The notes beneath the pieces were generated by a model that was given only the letters and a program-made list of their open reading frames with translations, ran no database searches and was not told where the DNA came from. The position numbers and the translations under genes are program-made. From an uncultured Bacillota bacterium (GTDB taxonomy: Bacteria > Bacillota_I > Bacilli_A > RF39 > UBA660), in contig CANSAJ010000009.1 of assembly GCA_947644695.1 (NCBI GenBank), positions 1 through 44,382 of the forward strand: a stretch of 44,382 nt of DNA. Direction: 5' to 3'. This document shows, one piece after another, positions 1-43,761 of this stretch. Position 1 is the first letter of the stretch. Each line of letters begins with the position of its first letter.

Positions 1-1179
1 ACAGGAGTATCACCAAATAGTGGATATGTATTGGATAATGAGAATATGACATGTAATAAAGGAGCAAGTATAACACTAAGCGGAACAACAGCAACAGTAA
101 GTAATATAAATAGTAGTCAGACATGCACAATACCATCATTAATTGCTCCATTATTAAAAGATCAAATATTAGCAGATCATCCAACAAGACCAGGGTCAAG
201 ACCAAATTTAAATAGTGGAGTATTTACAGATAGTAATACAGGTACATTATACACAGCAAGTGGAAATTTAACAGAAGGAGGGAGTACAGTATATTATTTC
301 TCAGGGAATGCACAAGATAACTGGATTCAGTTTGCAGGCCTTTATTGGAGAATAATTAGAATAAATGAAGATGGAAGTGTGCGTCTATTATATGTAGGTT
401 CAGATAAGAATACAGAGGCTGGGTATATAGGAACAAGTGCATATAATAATTTAAAAAATAGTCCAAAGTATGTAGGGTATATGTATGGGTCAAGTGGAAG
501 TGTAGCAAAGAATAGAGAAAATACAACGAATTCTACAATTAAAGGGGTAATAGATACATGGTATGATAATACAATAAAGCCAAGTTATAATGGATATGTA
601 AGTAAGACAGCTATTTATTGCAACGATCGAGCAAGTGAAAGTTATAGTACGTCATCTACTTTTGCTTATGCAACATACAGGAGACTTTATAATTCACAAG
701 CACCATCATATAAATGTGGAAATGACAAAAATAGTAATTTATATACAGGAACAAATGGAGCAAGTGATTTGGATAAATTTACAGCAAGTACAAATATAGG
801 GAATGGAAAGTTAACAAATCCAGTAGCATTAATGACAGCAGATGAACTAACGTTTGCTGGAGGGAAGTATGGTACAAAAGCACCAACATATTATTATTAC
901 AATGCCGCTGGAGGAAGTGTAACTGGAGATATTTGGTGGTGGACGATGAGCCCGTCTGACTTCTGGACTAATAATACCACTAGTTTCTCTAGGATATTTG
1001 CTGTGGCTAATTCAACCATGCCTGGCTACTTTGGCTATTTAGACCTCGACGGCGCTACTAAGGGGGTACGTCCAGTAGTTTCTCTGAAATCTTGCGTTCT
1101 GACATCTTCTGGAAACGGTACAAGCGCAAACCCATATAAAGTAGAAATCAATAGTACATGTAGTAGTGCTGAAAATTAG
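1..1179 (+). CDS. Large surface protein, 3' part, with DGR-type C-terminal variable domain (5' truncated by window)
   Basis: The frame is open from base 1 to the TAG at 1177-1179, so the gene starts upstream of the window; a TTG at 31 is only an internal codon. The visible ~392 residues begin with a short Cys-containing repeat-like stretch (NMTCNKGASITLSG). A globular domain with FAGLYWRIIRINEDG follows. The C-terminus contains WWWTMSPSDFW ... GVRPVVSLKS, the pattern of C-type-lectin/formylglycine-enzyme-like domains found in DGR target proteins. Codon use changes sharply in that part (see the variable-region entry). The N-terminus, where a signal peptide or pilin motif would be, is not visible. 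A degenerate relative lies at 28112-28369. The fold and DGR link are inferred from motif pattern; the ligand is unknown. Confidence 0.75.
   Translation, partial: TGVSPNSGYVLDNENMTCNKGASITLSGTTATVSNINSSQTCTIPSLIAPLLKDQILADHPTRPGSRPNLNSGVFTDSNTGTLYTASGNLTEGGSTVYYFSGNAQDNWIQFAGLYWRIIRINEDGSVRLLYVGSDKNTEAGYIGTSAYNNLKNSPKYVGYMYGSSGSVAKNRENTTNSTIKGVIDTWYDNTIKPSYNGYVSKTAIYCNDRASESYSTSSTFAYATYRRLYNSQAPSYKCGNDKNSNLYTGTNGASDLDKFTASTNIGNGKLTNPVALMTADELTFAGGKYGTKAPTYYYYNAAGGSVTGDIWWWTMSPSDFWTNNTTSFSRIFAVANSTMPGYFGYLDLDGATKGVRPVVSLKSCVLTSSGNGTSANPYKVEINSTCSSAEN
940..1135 (+). other. Putative DGR variable region (VR) in the surface protein gene
   Basis: Within an otherwise very A+T-rich gene, this stretch switches to GC-richer codons (ccg, gac, ttc, ggc, ctc, gcc-type). 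It encodes WTMSPSDFW, a run of mixed residues, then GVRPVVSLKSCVLTSSG. That position (extreme 3' end), the codon shift and the MSP...GVRPVVSL frame are typical of VRs copied from a template repeat by a DGR. No second copy (template repeat) is visible elsewhere in the window, so boundaries are approximate and the assignment is inference. Confidence 0.55.
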
Positions 1180-1266
1180 ACGAGTCGACACCCTGCGTAG
1201 ACATGCATGAAATGCTTGACTAAGTAGGTAACGGCTGTGCTTGCAAAATAAGGTACAAAATAAAAA
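1180..1266 (+). other. GC-richer spacer downstream of the variable region
   Basis: This 87-base stretch between the surface gene and the next gene is visibly richer in G+C than the surrounding intergenic DNA and contains short inverted pieces (GCATgaaATGC near 1204-1214, a GTCGAC palindrome near 1184). It encodes nothing convincing. In DGRs the segment after the VR carries target-recognition sequences, so it may belong to that cassette, but this is only positional inference. Confidence 0.3.
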
Positions 1267-30926: not shown

Positions 30927-31191
30927 TCCATTTCTAGCATTTAATCCATACATAGATTTACATGGACTAGATAGAATATCTGCTATAATAAAAACAAAAG
31001 AATTTATAACAGATAGTTTAAAGTTAAAAAAATATGATATAATAATAATACACGGTAAAGGTAGTGGAACATTAAAAGAAAGTGTCCATGAATATTTAAA
31101 GACTGATAAAAGAGTTATAGAATACAAAACTCATAATTTCAATGATGGAATAACAGTAGTAAAATTAGAAGGAGATAGTTATGAAAAGTAA
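30910..31191 (+). CDS. Smr-domain protein
   Basis: 93 residues containing little more than an Smr domain: IDLHGLDRISAIIKTKEFI and the loop IIHGKGSGTLKESVHEYL with HGKGSG. Smr domains are nucleic-acid nicking or RNA-binding modules, best known from the C-terminus of MutS2, of which this could be a free-standing homologue. It overlaps the PfkB gene at its start and the pseudopilin gene (11 bases) at its end, so the three are translationally coupled. Confidence 0.85.
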   Translation: MRKIDDPFLAFNPYIDLHGLDRISAIIKTKEFITDSLKLKKYDIIIIHGKGSGTLKESVHEYLKTDKRVIEYKTHNFNDGITVVKLEGDSYEK

Positions 31192-31711
31192 AAATGGATT
31201 CACACTTGTAGAAATAATTGCAGTAATAGCTTTAATTGGAGTTGTTCTATTACTAGTAGTACCTAATGTAGTAAACTTATATAAAAGCGCAAGAAAATCC
31301 GTTTTTCATGATGAAGTCCTAAGTATATATAATAATGCTTACACTACATATATATATAGATCAAGTGAAGGAGACCATACTAAAAGATTCTGTTTAGGAA
31401 AAGATACAACATTAAATAAAATTGAGATAGAAGAAAAAGAAGATTTATACTATGACATAACAGTTAATCAATATGGAGAAATCCTAAGCTTAAAAGTAAC
31501 TGATGGAATTTATGGAATAGACATGACTAACCAAAATGGTATAAAAAAGAAAAACATAAAATTAGATAACATAACAGATTCATTCGATTTAAACTGTAAC
31601 GGAGGCACTCCTATTGAACCACCAGAAGGATTATCGTGTATAATAACAAACACAAATAGAGAATGTAGAATATTTAACTTTTCATATAATGTAGAAAATG
31701 GAACACTATAG
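31181..31711 (+). CDS. Type IV pilin-like (pseudopilin) protein
   Basis: 176 residues. The start MKSKNGFTLVEIIAVIALIG is a class III signal peptide (cleavage G/F, Glu at +5) followed by the conserved hydrophobic helix. The C-terminus is short, with a Cys pair (CNGG ... LSCIITNTNRECRIFNF). The first 35 residues nearly match the pseudopilin in the Tad operon (38832-39263). No assembly ATPase of the type IV pilus kind is nearby. It overlaps smr by 11 bases. Confidence 0.88.
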   Translation: MKSKNGFTLVEIIAVIALIGVVLLLVVPNVVNLYKSARKSVFHDEVLSIYNNAYTTYIYRSSEGDHTKRFCLGKDTTLNKIEIEEKEDLYYDITVNQYGEILSLKVTDGIYGIDMTNQNGIKKKNIKLDNITDSFDLNCNGGTPIEPPEGLSCIITNTNRECRIFNFSYNVENGTL

Positions 31712-38650: not shown

Positions 38651-38839
38651 ATGAAAAATAAAAACGGGCAAGCTCTAACAGAATACATACTTATAATCGC
38701 ACTAATAAGTGTAATAGCTATAACACTAGTTAATCTTTTTGGAGGATATTTAAAAGATTCTATTACAAAAACTGGATGCGAACTATCAGGTACTGAATAT
38801 AAAGAAGGTGAAAAACCAGGTGAAGGCTACTGTGAATAA
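38651..38839 (+). CDS. Flp-type pilin (Tad major pilin candidate)
   Basis: 62 residues. MKNKNGQALTEYILIIALIS has the class III signal peptide (cleavage after G, with Glu at +5 of the mature form) and a hydrophobic helix typical of Flp/Fap pilins. A short acidic tail (TGCELSGTEYKEGEKPGEGYCE) with two Cys follows, longer than in classical Flp. ATG 38651 has AGGTGAG 3 bases upstream. It is the first gene of the Tad operon and overlaps the next gene by 8 bases. Confidence 0.85.
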   Translation: MKNKNGQALTEYILIIALISVIAITLVNLFGGYLKDSITKTGCELSGTEYKEGEKPGEGYCE

Positions 38840-39263
38840 AAAAGGTTTTACCTTAGTAGAAGTAATCGCTGTTATAGCATTAATAGGAGTCTTACTACTT
38901 TTCGTTATGCCTAATTTGACAAAAATATTCTCAAACAGTGTTAAAAAGACAATGCAAATACAAGAACATGAAATAGAAGAATCAGGAACTATCTTTTTAG
39001 AAGACTTCTGTAGAAATAAACTTGGTAACAATCTATGTCCAAGTACATTAACAAAAAATAGCGATAGAACTTACTCAGGATATATTAGCCTATCTACACT
39101 AATAAATGAAGAATATATAGAAGATGTAACACTACAAGGAGAGGACTGTAATGGTTGCGTAATATTTACAAATAATAACCCTAAAGCATACATAACATGC
39201 AAAGATAATTCATATGAAACAGAAACAAGCGTTAACTGGAAAAGTATTTGTAATATAAACTAG
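38832..39263 (+). CDS. Type IV pseudopilin inside the Tad operon
   Basis: 143 residues. MNKKGFTLVEVIAVIALIGV is a type IV class III leader plus helix, unlike the Flp-type leader of its neighbour. The C-terminal globular part has paired Cys (FCRNKLGNNLCP, GEDCNGC, YITC). GTG 38832 is chosen because GAAGG lies 6 bases upstream and cleavage falls a few residues in; longer in-frame starts exist back to 38808. Its N-terminus nearly duplicates the pseudopilin at 31181. Confidence 0.85.
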   Translation: MNKKGFTLVEVIAVIALIGVLLLFVMPNLTKIFSNSVKKTMQIQEHEIEESGTIFLEDFCRNKLGNNLCPSTLTKNSDRTYSGYISLSTLINEEYIEDVTLQGEDCNGCVIFTNNNPKAYITCKDNSYETETSVNWKSICNIN

Positions 39264-39273
39264 GAGTGATAAA

Positions 39274-39624
39274 ATGAAGAAAAAAAGGGGACAAGCACTT
39301 GTAGAATTTATAATAATACTTCCAGTCTTAATAATGCTTTTTTTTGGTGCTGTTGACTTTGGAAGAATAATATTAAGAAAAAATGAATTAGAAAGCTTAA
39401 CTTCTGATGTAGTGACACTCTATAAAGAAGGGCGTAGCTATGATGATTTAGAAACATTTCTAAAAGAAAATAATAAAAACAATACTTTAACAGTAACTAA
39501 TAAAGACAATGAATACATAGAATTCGAATTAAAAAGTGAAGTTGATTTTATAACCCCAGGACTAGAAAAAATCTTAGGCGAACCTTACAACATAACTGTA
39601 AGCCGGGTGATATATTATGATTAA
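39274..39624 (+). CDS. tadE: TadE-like pseudopilin
   Basis: 116 residues. RGQALVEFIIILPVLIMLFF and GAVDFGRIILRKNELESL are the TadE signature (prepilin-like helix, then D-F-G-R). TadE proteins are processed minor pilins needed for Tad pilus assembly. AGGAGTGA lies upstream of ATG 39274; it overlaps the next gene by 8 bases. Confidence 0.87.
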   Translation: MKKKRGQALVEFIIILPVLIMLFFGAVDFGRIILRKNELESLTSDVVTLYKEGRSYDDLETFLKENNKNNTLTVTNKDNEYIEFELKSEVDFITPGLEKILGEPYNITVSRVIYYD

Positions 39625-39937
39625 ACTAAACAAAAAAGGCCAATCCCTTATAATGTTTATAATATTTTTACCAATACTTCTCATGTCATTTGCATTAATA
39701 ATTGACGTAGGCATGATGTATAATGCAAAAATAAAAGGTGAATCCTTACTCAAATATGCAAAAAAAGAAGGAGTTAATATAGAAGATTATTTTAAAATAA
39801 ATGAAATAGAAATAATATCTCATGAGACAAATAGAAAAAACAACTCTACTTGTGATATAATCAATTTTAGAATAGAAAGTATATTTGGTAATCTAATAGG
39901 CTATGAAACATATGACATAAAGATAGAAGACTGCTAA
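39617..39937 (+). CDS. TadG/TadE-like minor pilin
   Basis: 106 residues with NKKGQSLIMFIIFLPILLMS and DVGMMYNAK, the start of TadG/TadE-like proteins, but without the large C-terminal von Willebrand domain of full TadG. The Glu at +5 is replaced (SLIMF), so processing by the prepilin peptidase is uncertain. It overlaps tadE at its start. Confidence 0.75.
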   Translation: MIKLNKKGQSLIMFIIFLPILLMSFALIIDVGMMYNAKIKGESLLKYAKKEGVNIEDYFKINEIEIISHETNRKNNSTCDIINFRIESIFGNLIGYETYDIKIEDC

Positions 39938-39962
39938 TTTAAGAAAGAAGGAAAAAAGAATA

Positions 39963-40733
39963 ATGAGTAACATTGGAAAAACTTTATGTATATACTCTCC
40001 AAAAGGTGGAGTAGGTAAATCAATATTATCACTAAACTTAGCTGGTATAGCATCTAAAATGAACTATAAAGTACTATTATTAGATTTTGCAGTACATACT
40101 GGCGTTTTAAACATGATAATAAATGAAGAAATAAAAAAAACACTTTATCATTTAACAGACGATATGGTTAATAATCGTTTTAAAAAAATAGGTGATTATG
40201 TATACAAATACACAGATTCTATTGATGTTTTATCAGCACCAAAAGATCCAAGACAAGGTAACAAAATAAGTAGCCGCTATTTAAGTATGATAATAGAAAA
40301 AGTTAGAAATAATTATGATGTAATTATAATAGACACAGGTGCTAAAATGGATGAAATAAATATTGTAACATTAGATTCAAGTGACTTAATACTATTTGTA
40401 ATAGATAATGATATGTATACATTAAAAAACACACGAAACATACTTAATATATTTAATGATTGTAACATAACAAACTATAAAGTATTACTAAATAACTCAA
40501 TTGATTTTAAAACACCATATTTTAGCATAATGGATATGAAAAAAATAATCGGAGCAAACATAGACTACACTCTTAGTAAAGATTTATTTATGAAAGACTT
40601 AACATCTTACTTATATGAATGCAAAATACCATCACTATTAGATGGATTTGATAAAAAATATAAAGAAGATGAATCTAATATGAGAATAATAATAACAGAT
40701 TTAAAAAGGGGTGAAGTAAATGAAAAAAACTAG
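39963..40733 (+). CDS. tadZ: TadZ/CpaE-like MinD-family ATPase
   Basis: 256 residues. The deviant Walker A SPKGGVGKSILSLNLA opens the protein, with LLLDFAVHTGVLN and VIIIDTGAKMDE as switch and Walker B-like segments. The receiver-like N-terminal domain of many CpaE proteins is missing. In Tad systems TadZ positions the pilus machine at the cell pole. GAAGG lies upstream of ATG 39963; it overlaps cpaF by 14 bases. Confidence 0.87.
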   Translation: MSNIGKTLCIYSPKGGVGKSILSLNLAGIASKMNYKVLLLDFAVHTGVLNMIINEEIKKTLYHLTDDMVNNRFKKIGDYVYKYTDSIDVLSAPKDPRQGNKISSRYLSMIIEKVRNNYDVIIIDTGAKMDEINIVTLDSSDLILFVIDNDMYTLKNTRNILNIFNDCNITNYKVLLNNSIDFKTPYFSIMDMKKIIGANIDYTLSKDLFMKDLTSYLYECKIPSLLDGFDKKYKEDESNMRIIITDLKRGEVNEKN

Positions 40734-42081
40734 TTTAGTAGATGCTTTTGAAGTAACAAAAACACACAGAAGTGTAATCCCCTTAACAGATTATGAAATA
40801 TTTCAAGATAAAGAATTATTAGACGAACTTAGAACTAAAATAATAGAAAACTTAATAGATACAGAAATTCCAGAATCAGCAAGTCTTAATGAATACATAA
40901 ATGCTGAAATAGATAGAAGTATAGAAGGATATGACTTAACAAATTTAGAAAGAAGTCATATATATAATTTAATAGACAATGAAATAAATGGATATGGACC
41001 TTTAACAGAATTATTACAAGATAAAAACATAACAGAAATAATGGTAAACGGTCCAGATGAAATATATATAGAAATAGATGGTCAATTAATAAAAGATGAA
41101 AGTGTTTCATTCATAAATGATGAACATATAATAAGAACAATACAAAGAATGATCCAACCTCTTGGAAGAACAATAGATGCATCTAGTCCAATGGTTGACT
41201 CTAGACTAAAAGATGGTTCTCGTATAAATGCAGTAATCCCACCACTTAGTTTAAAAGGTCCAGTAATAACTATAAGAAAGTTTAAAGAAAGTGTTGGAAC
41301 AATAGACGATCTTTTAAGAATGGGTACTATGACCCCATATATGGCTAGATTTCTTGAAGCTTGTGTATTAGGAAGACTAAACATGATAATATGCGGAGGA
41401 ACTGGCTCAGGAAAAACAACTCTTTTAAATATATTAAGTAGCTTTATAAGTGGAAGAGAAAGAATAGTAACCATTGAAGATGCGGCAGAACTAAGACTTA
41501 TGCAAGAACATGTAATCCCACTAGAAACAAGAGTAATGAATTATGACAGAGATGGAGAAGTAACTATCAGAGATTTAGTAATCAATGCTCTTCGTATGAG
41601 ACCAGACAGAATTATAGTAGGAGAGTGTCGTGGAAAAGAAGCATTTGATATGTTACAAGCGATGAACACAGGACATGATGGATCTTTAACAACACTACAC
41701 GCCAATGGATCGGTAGACGCATTAAATAGATTAGAAACAATGGTACTAATGAGTGGATTAGATATCCCAATAAAAGCAATACGTGAATATATATTTAATG
41801 CAATAGATCTAGTTGTAAACATTGAGAGACTAAATGATGGTAGAAGAAAAGTAGTAAGTATAAGTGAACTAGTTGGAGTAAAAGATGGTTCAATAATACT
41901 AAAAGACATATTTGCATTTAAACAAGAAGGAGTTACTGAAAAAGGTACTGTTAATGGAGAATTTATAAGATATGATTTTACACCTAAAATCCTTACTAAA
42001 CTAAAACAAAAAGGAATAGTGGATATAGATTATATCTTTGAAAATCCAGGAGGTAAAAATGAAACAAGGCGTAATAATTGA
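40720..42081 (+). CDS. tadA: Tad pilus secretion ATPase CpaF/TadA
   Basis: 453 residues. NEINGYGPLTELLQDKNITE and IMVNGPDEIYIEIDGQL form the N-terminal domain. The RecA-like domain has ICGGTGSGKTTLLN (Walker A), IVTIEDAAELRLMQEHVIPL, MRPDRIIVGECRGKEA (Walker B) and DGSLTTLHANG (His box). It is a GspE/VirB11-family hexameric ATPase that powers pilus assembly at the inner face of the membrane. GGGGTGA precedes ATG 40720. Confidence 0.95.
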   Translation: MKKTSLVDAFEVTKTHRSVIPLTDYEIFQDKELLDELRTKIIENLIDTEIPESASLNEYINAEIDRSIEGYDLTNLERSHIYNLIDNEINGYGPLTELLQDKNITEIMVNGPDEIYIEIDGQLIKDESVSFINDEHIIRTIQRMIQPLGRTIDASSPMVDSRLKDGSRINAVIPPLSLKGPVITIRKFKESVGTIDDLLRMGTMTPYMARFLEACVLGRLNMIICGGTGSGKTTLLNILSSFISGRERIVTIEDAAELRLMQEHVIPLETRVMNYDRDGEVTIRDLVINALRMRPDRIIVGECRGKEAFDMLQAMNTGHDGSLTTLHANGSVDALNRLETMVLMSGLDIPIKAIREYIFNAIDLVVNIERLNDGRRKVVSISELVGVKDGSIILKDIFAFKQEGVTEKGTVNGEFIRYDFTPKILTKLKQKGIVDIDYIFENPGGKNETRRNN

Positions 42082-43069
42082 ACTCTTAGTAATACAAATT
42101 ATAATAATCCTCCTATTAATTCTTTTACTAATATATGTAATAAAAGTTAGACACAACATAGCACTAGAAAAAAAATTTAGTAAATACACTATCGGAAGAC
42201 TTGAAAATCATGAAATTTCTATATTTGATAAAATAAATAAATTTATAAGTAACATAATTAAAACAGTATCGAACTTAATAAAAAAATCTGAAATATTATC
42301 AAAATATGGTTTATCTTATGAAAAACATATATCTTATGATGAACTTGAACATAAAAGTGGTATAGATTATATAAGTACTAAAATTCTATTAGGATTAATA
42401 ACTTTAATTTTATACCTTATTACAATGATGTTTCAATATAGCCACGTGACTTTATTAGGACTACTTATGAGTTATTTAGTTGGATTCTTTATAGTTGATT
42501 TATACGTACAAATAGAATTTAGAAAGAAAAGAAAACAAATAAGCGAAGATTTATTAAAAGCTATTATAATAATGAATAACTCATTTAAAAGTGGTATGAG
42601 TATAATGCAAGCAATTGAAATTGTAAAAAATGAGCTAACCGGGGCAATAGGTGATGAATTTAAAAAAATATATTTAGATATGTCTTATGGTCTTACAATA
42701 GAAACTGTATTTGATAGATTCTATAAAAGAGTTCGTCTAGATGATGCAAAATTTATAAGCACTAGTTTAACATTATTAAATAAAACAGGAGGAAACATAG
42801 TAAAAGTATTTAAAAGTATAGAAAGAGAATTCTTTGACAAGAAGAAACTAAATGATGAATTAAAAATGGCAACGGCATCAAGTATGTTTGTATATAAATT
42901 ACTTTTAGTAATACCATTTATAGTATGCTTTTTAATATTTATATTAAATCCAAGCTACTTTAATCCTTTATTTAAAACACAAATAGGTTTACTGGTAATT
43001 TCATTAATATTACTTCTATATATTATGTATGCTATAATTATTAAAAGAATAATGAGGATTGATATATGA
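42059..43069 (+). CDS. tadB: Tad pilus membrane platform protein TadB
   Basis: 336 residues: a membrane segment at the N-terminus (~5-28), two near ~110-150, a cytoplasmic T2SF/GspF domain (KAIIIMNNSFKSGMSIMQAI, SLTLLNKTGGNIVKVFKSIE) and two C-terminal membrane segments. ATG 42059 follows AGGAGG by 5 bases and overlaps cpaF by 23 bases; an upstream TTG 42038 is rejected. It ends in ATGATGA, sharing its stop with the tadC start. Confidence 0.9.
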   Translation: MKQGVIIELLVIQIIIILLLILLLIYVIKVRHNIALEKKFSKYTIGRLENHEISIFDKINKFISNIIKTVSNLIKKSEILSKYGLSYEKHISYDELEHKSGIDYISTKILLGLITLILYLITMMFQYSHVTLLGLLMSYLVGFFIVDLYVQIEFRKKRKQISEDLLKAIIIMNNSFKSGMSIMQAIEIVKNELTGAIGDEFKKIYLDMSYGLTIETVFDRFYKRVRLDDAKFISTSLTLLNKTGGNIVKVFKSIEREFFDKKKLNDELKMATASSMFVYKLLLVIPFIVCFLIFILNPSYFNPLFKTQIGLLVISLILLLYIMYAIIIKRIMRIDI

Positions 43070-43761
43070 TGAACAATAGATTTATAGAAAAAATTTATAC
43101 TAAAAAAAGTATAAACAGAATAAAAAAGAAAACTACCTTATTAGGCATATATAATAAAATAGATCCAATAGATTTTATGAATGCTAGATTAATAATAAGT
43201 TTATTGATATTCTTTATAACTTTTTTAGTTTCTTCTTATGCATATATATTAAGTCCAGTTTTAACTATCGCATTTTATATTGGAGTAGAATATATAGTAC
43301 TAGATATGAGAATAAAAAAACGTAGCTCAAAATTAGATTATGAAGCACTATTTTTCTTTGAAGTTTTAACACTATCATTAGAAACTGGAAGAAATTTAAA
43401 AGGTGCTTTAGATCTAACTGTAAGAAACATTGATAGTGAACTAAGTGCCGAATTTGCCTCTATGCTAGAAACAATTGATTATGGTAAAACATTAACAGAA
43501 GCATTAAATGATATGAAAAAAAGAATACCAAGCGACACAATAAATAATGTTATTCTAAATATAACACATTCTAATGTATTTGGTAATGAAGTAGTTGAAA
43601 CTCTTTACAATCAAGTAGATTACTTAAGAGATAAAAAACTATTTGAAGCAAAAGCCCAAATTGCCAAAATGCCAATAAAGATAAGTGTAGTATCTGTAGT
43701 ATTCTTTATTCCAATAATTTTACTTTTAATTTTAACCCCAGTTTTATTAGAACTAATTTAG
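43066..43761 (+). CDS. tadC: Tad pilus membrane platform protein TadC
   Basis: 231 residues: two membrane segments (~45-85), a GspF domain (FFEVLTLSLETGRNLKGALD, IPSDTINNVILNITHSNVFG) and a C-terminal membrane segment. It partners TadB. The last codons run directly into the promoter of the second toxin-antitoxin-like locus. No prepilin peptidase (TadV) gene is visible in the window. Confidence 0.88.
   Translation: MMNNRFIEKIYTKKSINRIKKKTTLLGIYNKIDPIDFMNARLIISLLIFFITFLVSSYAYILSPVLTIAFYIGVEYIVLDMRIKKRSSKLDYEALFFFEVLTLSLETGRNLKGALDLTVRNIDSELSAEFASMLETIDYGKTLTEALNDMKKRIPSDTINNVILNITHSNVFGNEVVETLYNQVDYLRDKKLFEAKAQIAKMPIKISVVSVVFFIPIILLLILTPVLLELI

Follow-up and report, generated by a model that had tools for sequence, protein, structure and literature searches.

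Diversity-generating retroelements (DGRs) are normally described as one reverse transcriptase (RT) together with one template. In the BPP-1 element, a folded spacer recruits the Avd-RT complex and primes cDNA synthesis at IMH* (PMC12875486). The accessible parts of published surveys also report single RTs that serve several targets and, in a minority of cases, DGRs that have at least two template repeats (TRs) (PMC6642488, PMC3521204; for Treponema denticola, PMC4891356), including two TRs in Stenotrophomonas and six unique TRs in an atypical case from Pseudomonas (PMC6642488). Those same parts, however, describe neither arrays of tens of templates nor template units that each possess a promoter and a conserved RNA structure, and in the openly accessible papers that were searched, we found no account of arrays in which template RNA genes stand alone and number in the tens. 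A second point of comparison is provided by the vls arrays of Borrelia and the pilS arrays, in which, as here, tandem untranslated cassettes with shared borders resupply a hypervariable domain.

Here, we analyze a stretch of 44,382 nucleotides (the window) on contig C9 of a fragmented MAG (genome G000; 1.25 Mb in 56 contigs) from an uncultured Bacillota bacterium. A multi-template DGR with about 26 targets very likely accounts for the end of the first gene in the window, which would be the variable region (VR) of one of these targets. With the BPP-1 DGR, this system has in common an RT with a DGR motif, an Avd-like gene, a VR near the C terminus of the target, adenine-directed differences between TR and VR, near-identical IMH*/IMH borders, and, 3′ of the TR, a structured spacer of the kind that PMC12875486 describes for BPP-1. 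It differs in that its templates are predicted to be free-standing RNA genes rather than lying between avd and rt, number from 1 to 68 per genome and stand in tandem arrays alongside about 26 targets, and have a leader helix and a putative promoter of their own, and in that an extra MutS-like gene is present. We read the array-borne, stand-alone template RNA genes as what is new here, the DGR kind itself being known.

Target genes and their variable regions

The first open reading frame of the window (positions 1 to 1179, plus strand) comprises the 3′ 392 codons of a target gene whose 5′ end is cut off by the contig end, and it aligns with 34 paralogues and orthologues at 45 to 78% identity. 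The initial annotation had pointed to a break in composition and to a WTMSPSDFW...GVRPVVSLKS frame at the end of this gene. Both were confirmed, the former by the composition profile, in which the GC content, about 0.32 at first, reaches 0.47 across positions 901 to 1100 and drops again past 1200, and the latter by the translation, which ends in ...GDIWWWTMSPSDFWTNNTTSFSRIFAVANSTMPGYFGYLDLDGATKGVRPVVSLKSCVLTSSGNGTSANPYKVEINSTCSSAEN (the tail is also read as WWWTMSPSDFWTNNTTSFSRIFAVANSTMPGYFGYLDLDGATKGVRPVVSLKS...). Close to the C terminus, a VR core of 111 nt (955 to 1065) is bounded by two conserved borders on the same strand: ATGAGCCCG on the 5′ side (946 to 954), which reads ATGAGTCCG in other targets and in the templates, and the IMH-like GTACGTCCAGTAGTTTCTCT on the 3′ side (1066 to 1085), whose IMH*-like counterpart in the templates is GTACGTCCAG(T)(A)ATTTCTCTT. 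The rest of the gene (1086 to 1179) is a conserved C-terminal segment, KSCVLTSSGNGTSANPYKVEINSTCSSAEN, shared with paralogous loci. Over and past the stop codon lies a GC-rich element (1174 to 1258, plus strand) that is 95% identical to positions 1 to 85 of contig C36. Directly downstream of the target, also on the plus strand, is a MutS-domain-I (MSL-like) gene (1288 to 1695; PF01624, E = 1.2e-4, 22.7 bits against a cutoff of 20.6), which shares 38% identity with its MSL counterpart in the RT operon described below.

When positions 900 to 1260 were compared with their own genome, 61 matches were found, falling into three groups that correspond to the upstream border, the downstream border, and the post-stop element. 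Reading these loci, we found about 26 target-type open reading frames that share the frame and differ in the core between ATGAGTCCG and GTACGTCCAG...TTTCTCT. Since the same pair of borders brackets different cores in 26 such genes of G000, the pattern is not due to chance.

The full-length paralogues start with a hydrophobic N-terminal segment (MNKKFVLYGVV..LLLCVGMSYAYF). Although the window gene itself has no match in Pfam or NCBIfam, DUF6273 (PF19789) was detected as the C-terminal domain of paralogous targets, above the cutoff for the copy on C28 (E = 3.6e-8, 33.9 bits against 23.5) and below it for those on C33 and C23, one of which falls just under it (E = 1.5e-4). The combination of this hydrophobic N terminus with the DUF6273-like C-terminal domain makes it likely that the target proteins are located at the surface or secreted. 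An AlphaFold2 model of the window domain (mean pLDDT, 89.7) weakly resembles DUF6273 phage proteins among viral structure models, and the GVRP..SLKS end is a further likeness to that family. The lectin-like fold suggested in the initial annotation was not confirmed with this confident model: a Foldseek search of the PDB returned no match at E ≤ 0.001, with lectin structures appearing only at E > 2 and with low TM-scores.

Reverse transcriptase operon

A profile search of the genome gave five RVT_1 matches. One of them, on C12 (6345 to 7463; 373 amino acids; RVT_1 E = 2.5e-19), carries the DGR-type motif GNMTSQ and has as its best solved relative 8ub7 (E = 1.5e-26, compared with 6.8e-11 for a group II RT), which we take to be the RT of the Bordetella phage BPP-1 DGR (bRT). 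To judge from these similarities, the C12 enzyme belongs with the DGR RTs. It is the middle gene of an operon that consists of an Avd-like gene overlapping the RT start, the RT, and a MutS-domain-I gene (MSL). The Avd assignment calls for caution, since both supporting scores fall under the curated cutoffs (PF22296, bAvd, E = 2.4e-6, 28.4 bits against 40; NF033474, DivGenRetAVD, E = 6e-8, 32.9 bits over the full length against 80). In the sister genome G008, the operon reads target-Avd-RT-MSL, and of the nine genomes of the genus, six combine templates with an intact RT operon, the remaining three being 74 to 82% complete. The RT that had been predicted to accompany the variable region is therefore present, elsewhere in the genome.

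The other four RVT_1 matches were set aside. By inspection, C3 carries what looks like the RT of a group II intron, and C4 a retron-like RT to which additional sequence is fused; C33 holds a retron-type fragment, and C45 holds a weak match under the cutoff. The C33 RT (L049:1961-2995) adjoins a target gene, and its N-terminal part matches residues 36 to 134 of the retron St85 RT, the remainder being unrelated.

Number and layout of the template units

G000 contains about 29 free-standing, noncoding template units of about 320 bp, arranged in tandem arrays on contigs C6, C12, C49, and C8. They have the same borders as the targets, except that their 3′ border reads TTTCTCTTG where the targets have TTTCTCTGAAATC, and they continue into a common tail; compared with GTACGTCCAGTAGTTTCTCT as the IMH of the window VR, the IMH* of the templates is GTACGTCCAGTAATTTCTCTT or a close variant. 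The initial annotation had tied its reading to the presence of an RT or a template somewhere in the genome, and both are there. It had also proposed to look for a template nearly identical to the window VR: cassettes with the VR borders are abundant, but none in the assembly is nearly identical to the window VR in sequence. Among all assembled templates, we found no donor for positions 955 to 1065, the best local match being patchy and not directed to adenines; since the arrays stop at contig breaks, this search covers the assembled arrays only.

The C12 array lies about 23 kb from the RT operon, and the other arrays are on other contigs. By default, DiGReF searches 5 kb on each side of the RT (PMC3521204); searches that extend no more than a few kilobases from the RT would miss templates as distant as these. 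That the templates are stand-alone genes also suggests that they can act in trans.

A covariance model of the tail found 29, 68, 16, 6, 6, 3, 2, 1, and 1 copies in the nine genomes of the genus (lower bounds, as these are draft genomes), with a sister species carrying about 68 template units, and no copy in 31 tested genomes outside the genus. A scan of IMG/VR for GGAGTACGTCCAGTARTTTCTCT gave no match. The range of 1 to 68 template RNA genes makes the genus a natural comparative series for identifying the parts that a template RNA needs.

Neighboring units on C46 of genome G006 have near-identical flanks around cores that are about 70% identical, a pattern indicating that whole cores are replaced as blocks within arrays. 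In one stretch of this contig (9075 to 10190; L140), the units are spaced at 336 to 337 bp, and three cores are identical and one is replaced, as if the arrays expanded through tandem duplication.

Structure and putative promoter of the predicted template RNA

Often preceded by a promoter-like box, a unit begins with a leader and continues with the template, whose 3′ end (UUUCUCU) is predicted to pair with AGAGAAA; a covarying hairpin is its further component. Folding an alignment of 37 tails with RNAalifold yielded, unprompted, a 7-bp duplex between UUUCUCU and AGAGAAA about 45 nt downstream, with the hairpin enclosed. In this structure, 97.1% of the cells are paired, compared with 45 to 61% in slid controls, and 57 cells show double changes, compared with 20.1 (standard deviation, 5.5) after shuffling. 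The outer duplex hardly varies, so that its support comes from conservation and complementarity, whereas the covariation resides in the hairpin. A structured spacer RNA is thus predicted 3′ of the TR, and its covarying structure can be read straight from sequence. Rfam 15 contained no match to the C6 array at E ≤ 1 and no relevant family for the start of the window.

Upstream of the template, there is a leader, GGATAATATT, that can base-pair with AATATTATCC in the tail, with a complementarity of 15.4 compared with 9.2 (standard deviation, 0.28) for shuffled leaders. Swapping tails within genomes reduced the pairing slightly, to 15.11 from the real 15.43 (15/1000), so that covariation of the leader is modest even though its complementarity is strong. 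When whole units were folded, the leader-tail helix appeared in units of both G008 and G000, and the full model appeared in the G008 unit. In adenine-rich units, the leader is preceded, at a distance of 12 nt, by a TATAAT box.

Adenine-directed differences between templates and targets

The initial annotation had also anticipated that differences between template and variable region would concentrate at template adenines, and this holds for the family, in this genome (G000) as well as in its relatives (G008 and G005). The clearest case is G008, which has one adenine-rich template with codons that are largely AAC, one tail RNA, and seven VRs: 101 of 222 adenines are changed (45.5%), compared with 42 of 544 other bases (7.7%; C, 11/196; G, 16/178; T, 15/170; P = 3.5e-31). 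In G000, the template at C12:30957-31064 differs from the target at C3:41019 at 12 of 29 adenines and at 2 of 73 other positions (P = 2.4e-6). When four targets are taken together, it differs at 47 of 111 adenines and 28 of 274 others. A template and a target of G005 differ at 12 of 26 adenines and 4 of 64 other positions. Between two neighboring G000 templates, C6:53829 and C6:54164, 10 of the 11 differences are at adenines, all of them adenine in C6:53829. We rely on per-base template/target rates and on the single-template genome G008, because pooled counts over diverged pairs (lower identity bands) dilute the bias and because the flanks of the compared G000 templates also differ by many A/G changes.

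One pair behaves differently. The template C49:920 and the target C6:55183 share a 117-nt core with a single A-to-T change between unrelated flanks. At the rates of G008, at most one changed adenine among 27 would be expected about 0.6% of the time, so that the core was possibly copied here with almost no errors, and some transfer is perhaps plain gene conversion.

Model and alternative explanations

The RT operon, templates, targets, borders, adenine bias, covarying RNA structure, and promoter-like boxes observed here can be joined in the following scheme. Every template unit would have a promoter that drives the synthesis of a small RNA comprising leader, TR, IMH*, and structured spacer. The leader GGAUAAUAUU would pair with AAUAUUAUCC of the tail, and UUUCUCU would pair with AGAGAAA around the hairpin; these pairings would position the end of the template so that the Avd-RT complex can prime there, as the spacer does in BPP-1. 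The RT would then make cDNA with errors opposite adenines, and this cDNA would take the place of the core that ATGAGTCCG and GTACGTCCAGTARTTTCTCT enclose, be it in a target gene or, sometimes, in another template unit. We infer that the window VR undergoes the same rewriting as the rest of the family.

Several findings weigh against this scheme: the window VR has no donor among the assembled templates, the arrays are separate from the RT operon, the Avd scores are subthreshold, the pair C49:920/C6:55183 is almost free of adenine changes, the flanks of the compared G000 templates are themselves rich in A/G differences, and many units are adenine poor. The asparagine codons per template in G000 are bimodally distributed (13, 12, 11, 11, 9, 9, and 6, followed by values of 3 or less), and perfect −10 boxes are found in all 7 adenine-rich units but in only 6 of the 18 adenine-poor ones (Fisher test, 0.005). 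The same trend is seen in G005 and G006 (Fisher test across the three genomes, 0.005, 0.024, and 0.037, with a good box in 6/18, 1/8, and 3/30 adenine-poor units). Most G000 templates are thus adenine poor and have weaker promoter boxes, and many may be inactive. One plausible explanation, to which we give slightly less than an even chance, is that the adenine-poor units are retired templates that have been hit by homing and are decaying, leaving a functionally ordinary DGR with several templates, the few adenine-rich ones. The weaker boxes in all three genomes and the altered 3′ borders of some units are consistent with such a fate. However, although the cores are untranslated, 25/25, 11/11, and 38/39 of them in the three genomes are in frame and free of stops. 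Among the adenine-poor cores, the template frame contains a stop in 0/18, 0/8, and 1/30, compared with 11/18, 5/8, and 26/30 for the +1 frame and all of them for the +2 frame, a gap that is partly due to composition and to the shared ancestry of the frame. Open frames in nearly all adenine-poor units, together with a conserved tail RNA, would not be expected under long neutral decay.

Alternatively, the system might work in two stages, with adenine-rich units as active mutagenic templates and adenine-poor, in-frame units as a library of past variants that is copied faithfully and redeployed into targets. The bimodal asparagine counts, the stop-free frames of untranslated cores in units whose +1 and +2 frames usually hold stops, the faithful pair C49:920/C6:55183, and the replacement of cores within arrays all fit this proposal. 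Yet the faithful pair is a single one whose transfer may have run in either direction, and the weak −10 boxes and altered 3′ borders of the adenine-poor units fit retired templates as well, so that we regard two stages as somewhat unlikely. It is tempting to speculate further that the whole forms a retroelement variant library, in which adenine-rich RNA genes mutate and successful variants are stored in frame, untranslated, and redeployed almost unmutated into about 26 genes. This version is less likely still, but it would join DGR mutagenesis and a stored repertoire in one system, and if the in-frame, adenine-poor templates are such a repertoire, the archiving and reuse of DGR variants becomes testable.

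Finally, the arrays could be silent cassettes for RecA-type gene conversion like vls and pilS, with the DGR operon separate or vestigial and the adenine pattern an old trace, as would suit tandem silent cassettes that share only their borders with expressed genes and are mostly adenine poor, the single-base difference between C49:920 and C6:55183, and the exchange of core blocks between G006 units with near-identical flanks; but this is improbable, because the cassettes are not promoterless, inert DNA copies but carry a covarying RNA tail, a complementary leader, and, in the adenine-rich ones, perfect −10 boxes, none of which a donor for DNA recombination needs, because the differences of the closest cassettes and of templates from targets are strongly directed to adenines, and because an intact RT operon accompanies the templates in most genomes of the genus. 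The multi-template DGR also departs from vls and pilS in having cassettes that resemble RNA genes and many expression loci instead of one.

Elements accompanying the target genes

Several further observations concern the surroundings of the target genes. The GC-rich element at positions 1174 to 1258 of the window contains GCATGAAATGC, and its second copy, on C36, lies where another target gene appears to end. Farther along the window, positions 31181 to 31711 and 38808 to 43761 hold N-terminal methylation motifs like those of type IV pilins (PF07963), together with a run of genes that, by inspection, resemble the pilus genes CpaE, CpaF, TadB, and TadC.

A small gene starting with MINEEM.NNRIGRN lies directly 3′ of many targets (C18, C25, C29, C32, C33, C42, C52, and C53), and its copy on C33 reads as an XRE-type helix-turn-helix regulator of 81 amino acids. 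Target and small gene may constitute a repeated target-regulator module. Just 3′ of a target gene on C6 (L031:15041-15066), TGGCCGCGAAAA and TTTTCGCGGCCA form an inverted repeat of 12 bp without mismatches around a loop of 2 nt, and a terminator-like repeat comes next; the inverted repeat could be the DGR recognition stem-loop.

On C3, three small VR genes (at 38.7, 41.0, and 45.4 kb) are located in an apparent prophage, with an SSB-like open reading frame nearby. Their VRs match the adenine-rich template of the host with adenine-directed changes, and the prophage may share the DGR of its host.
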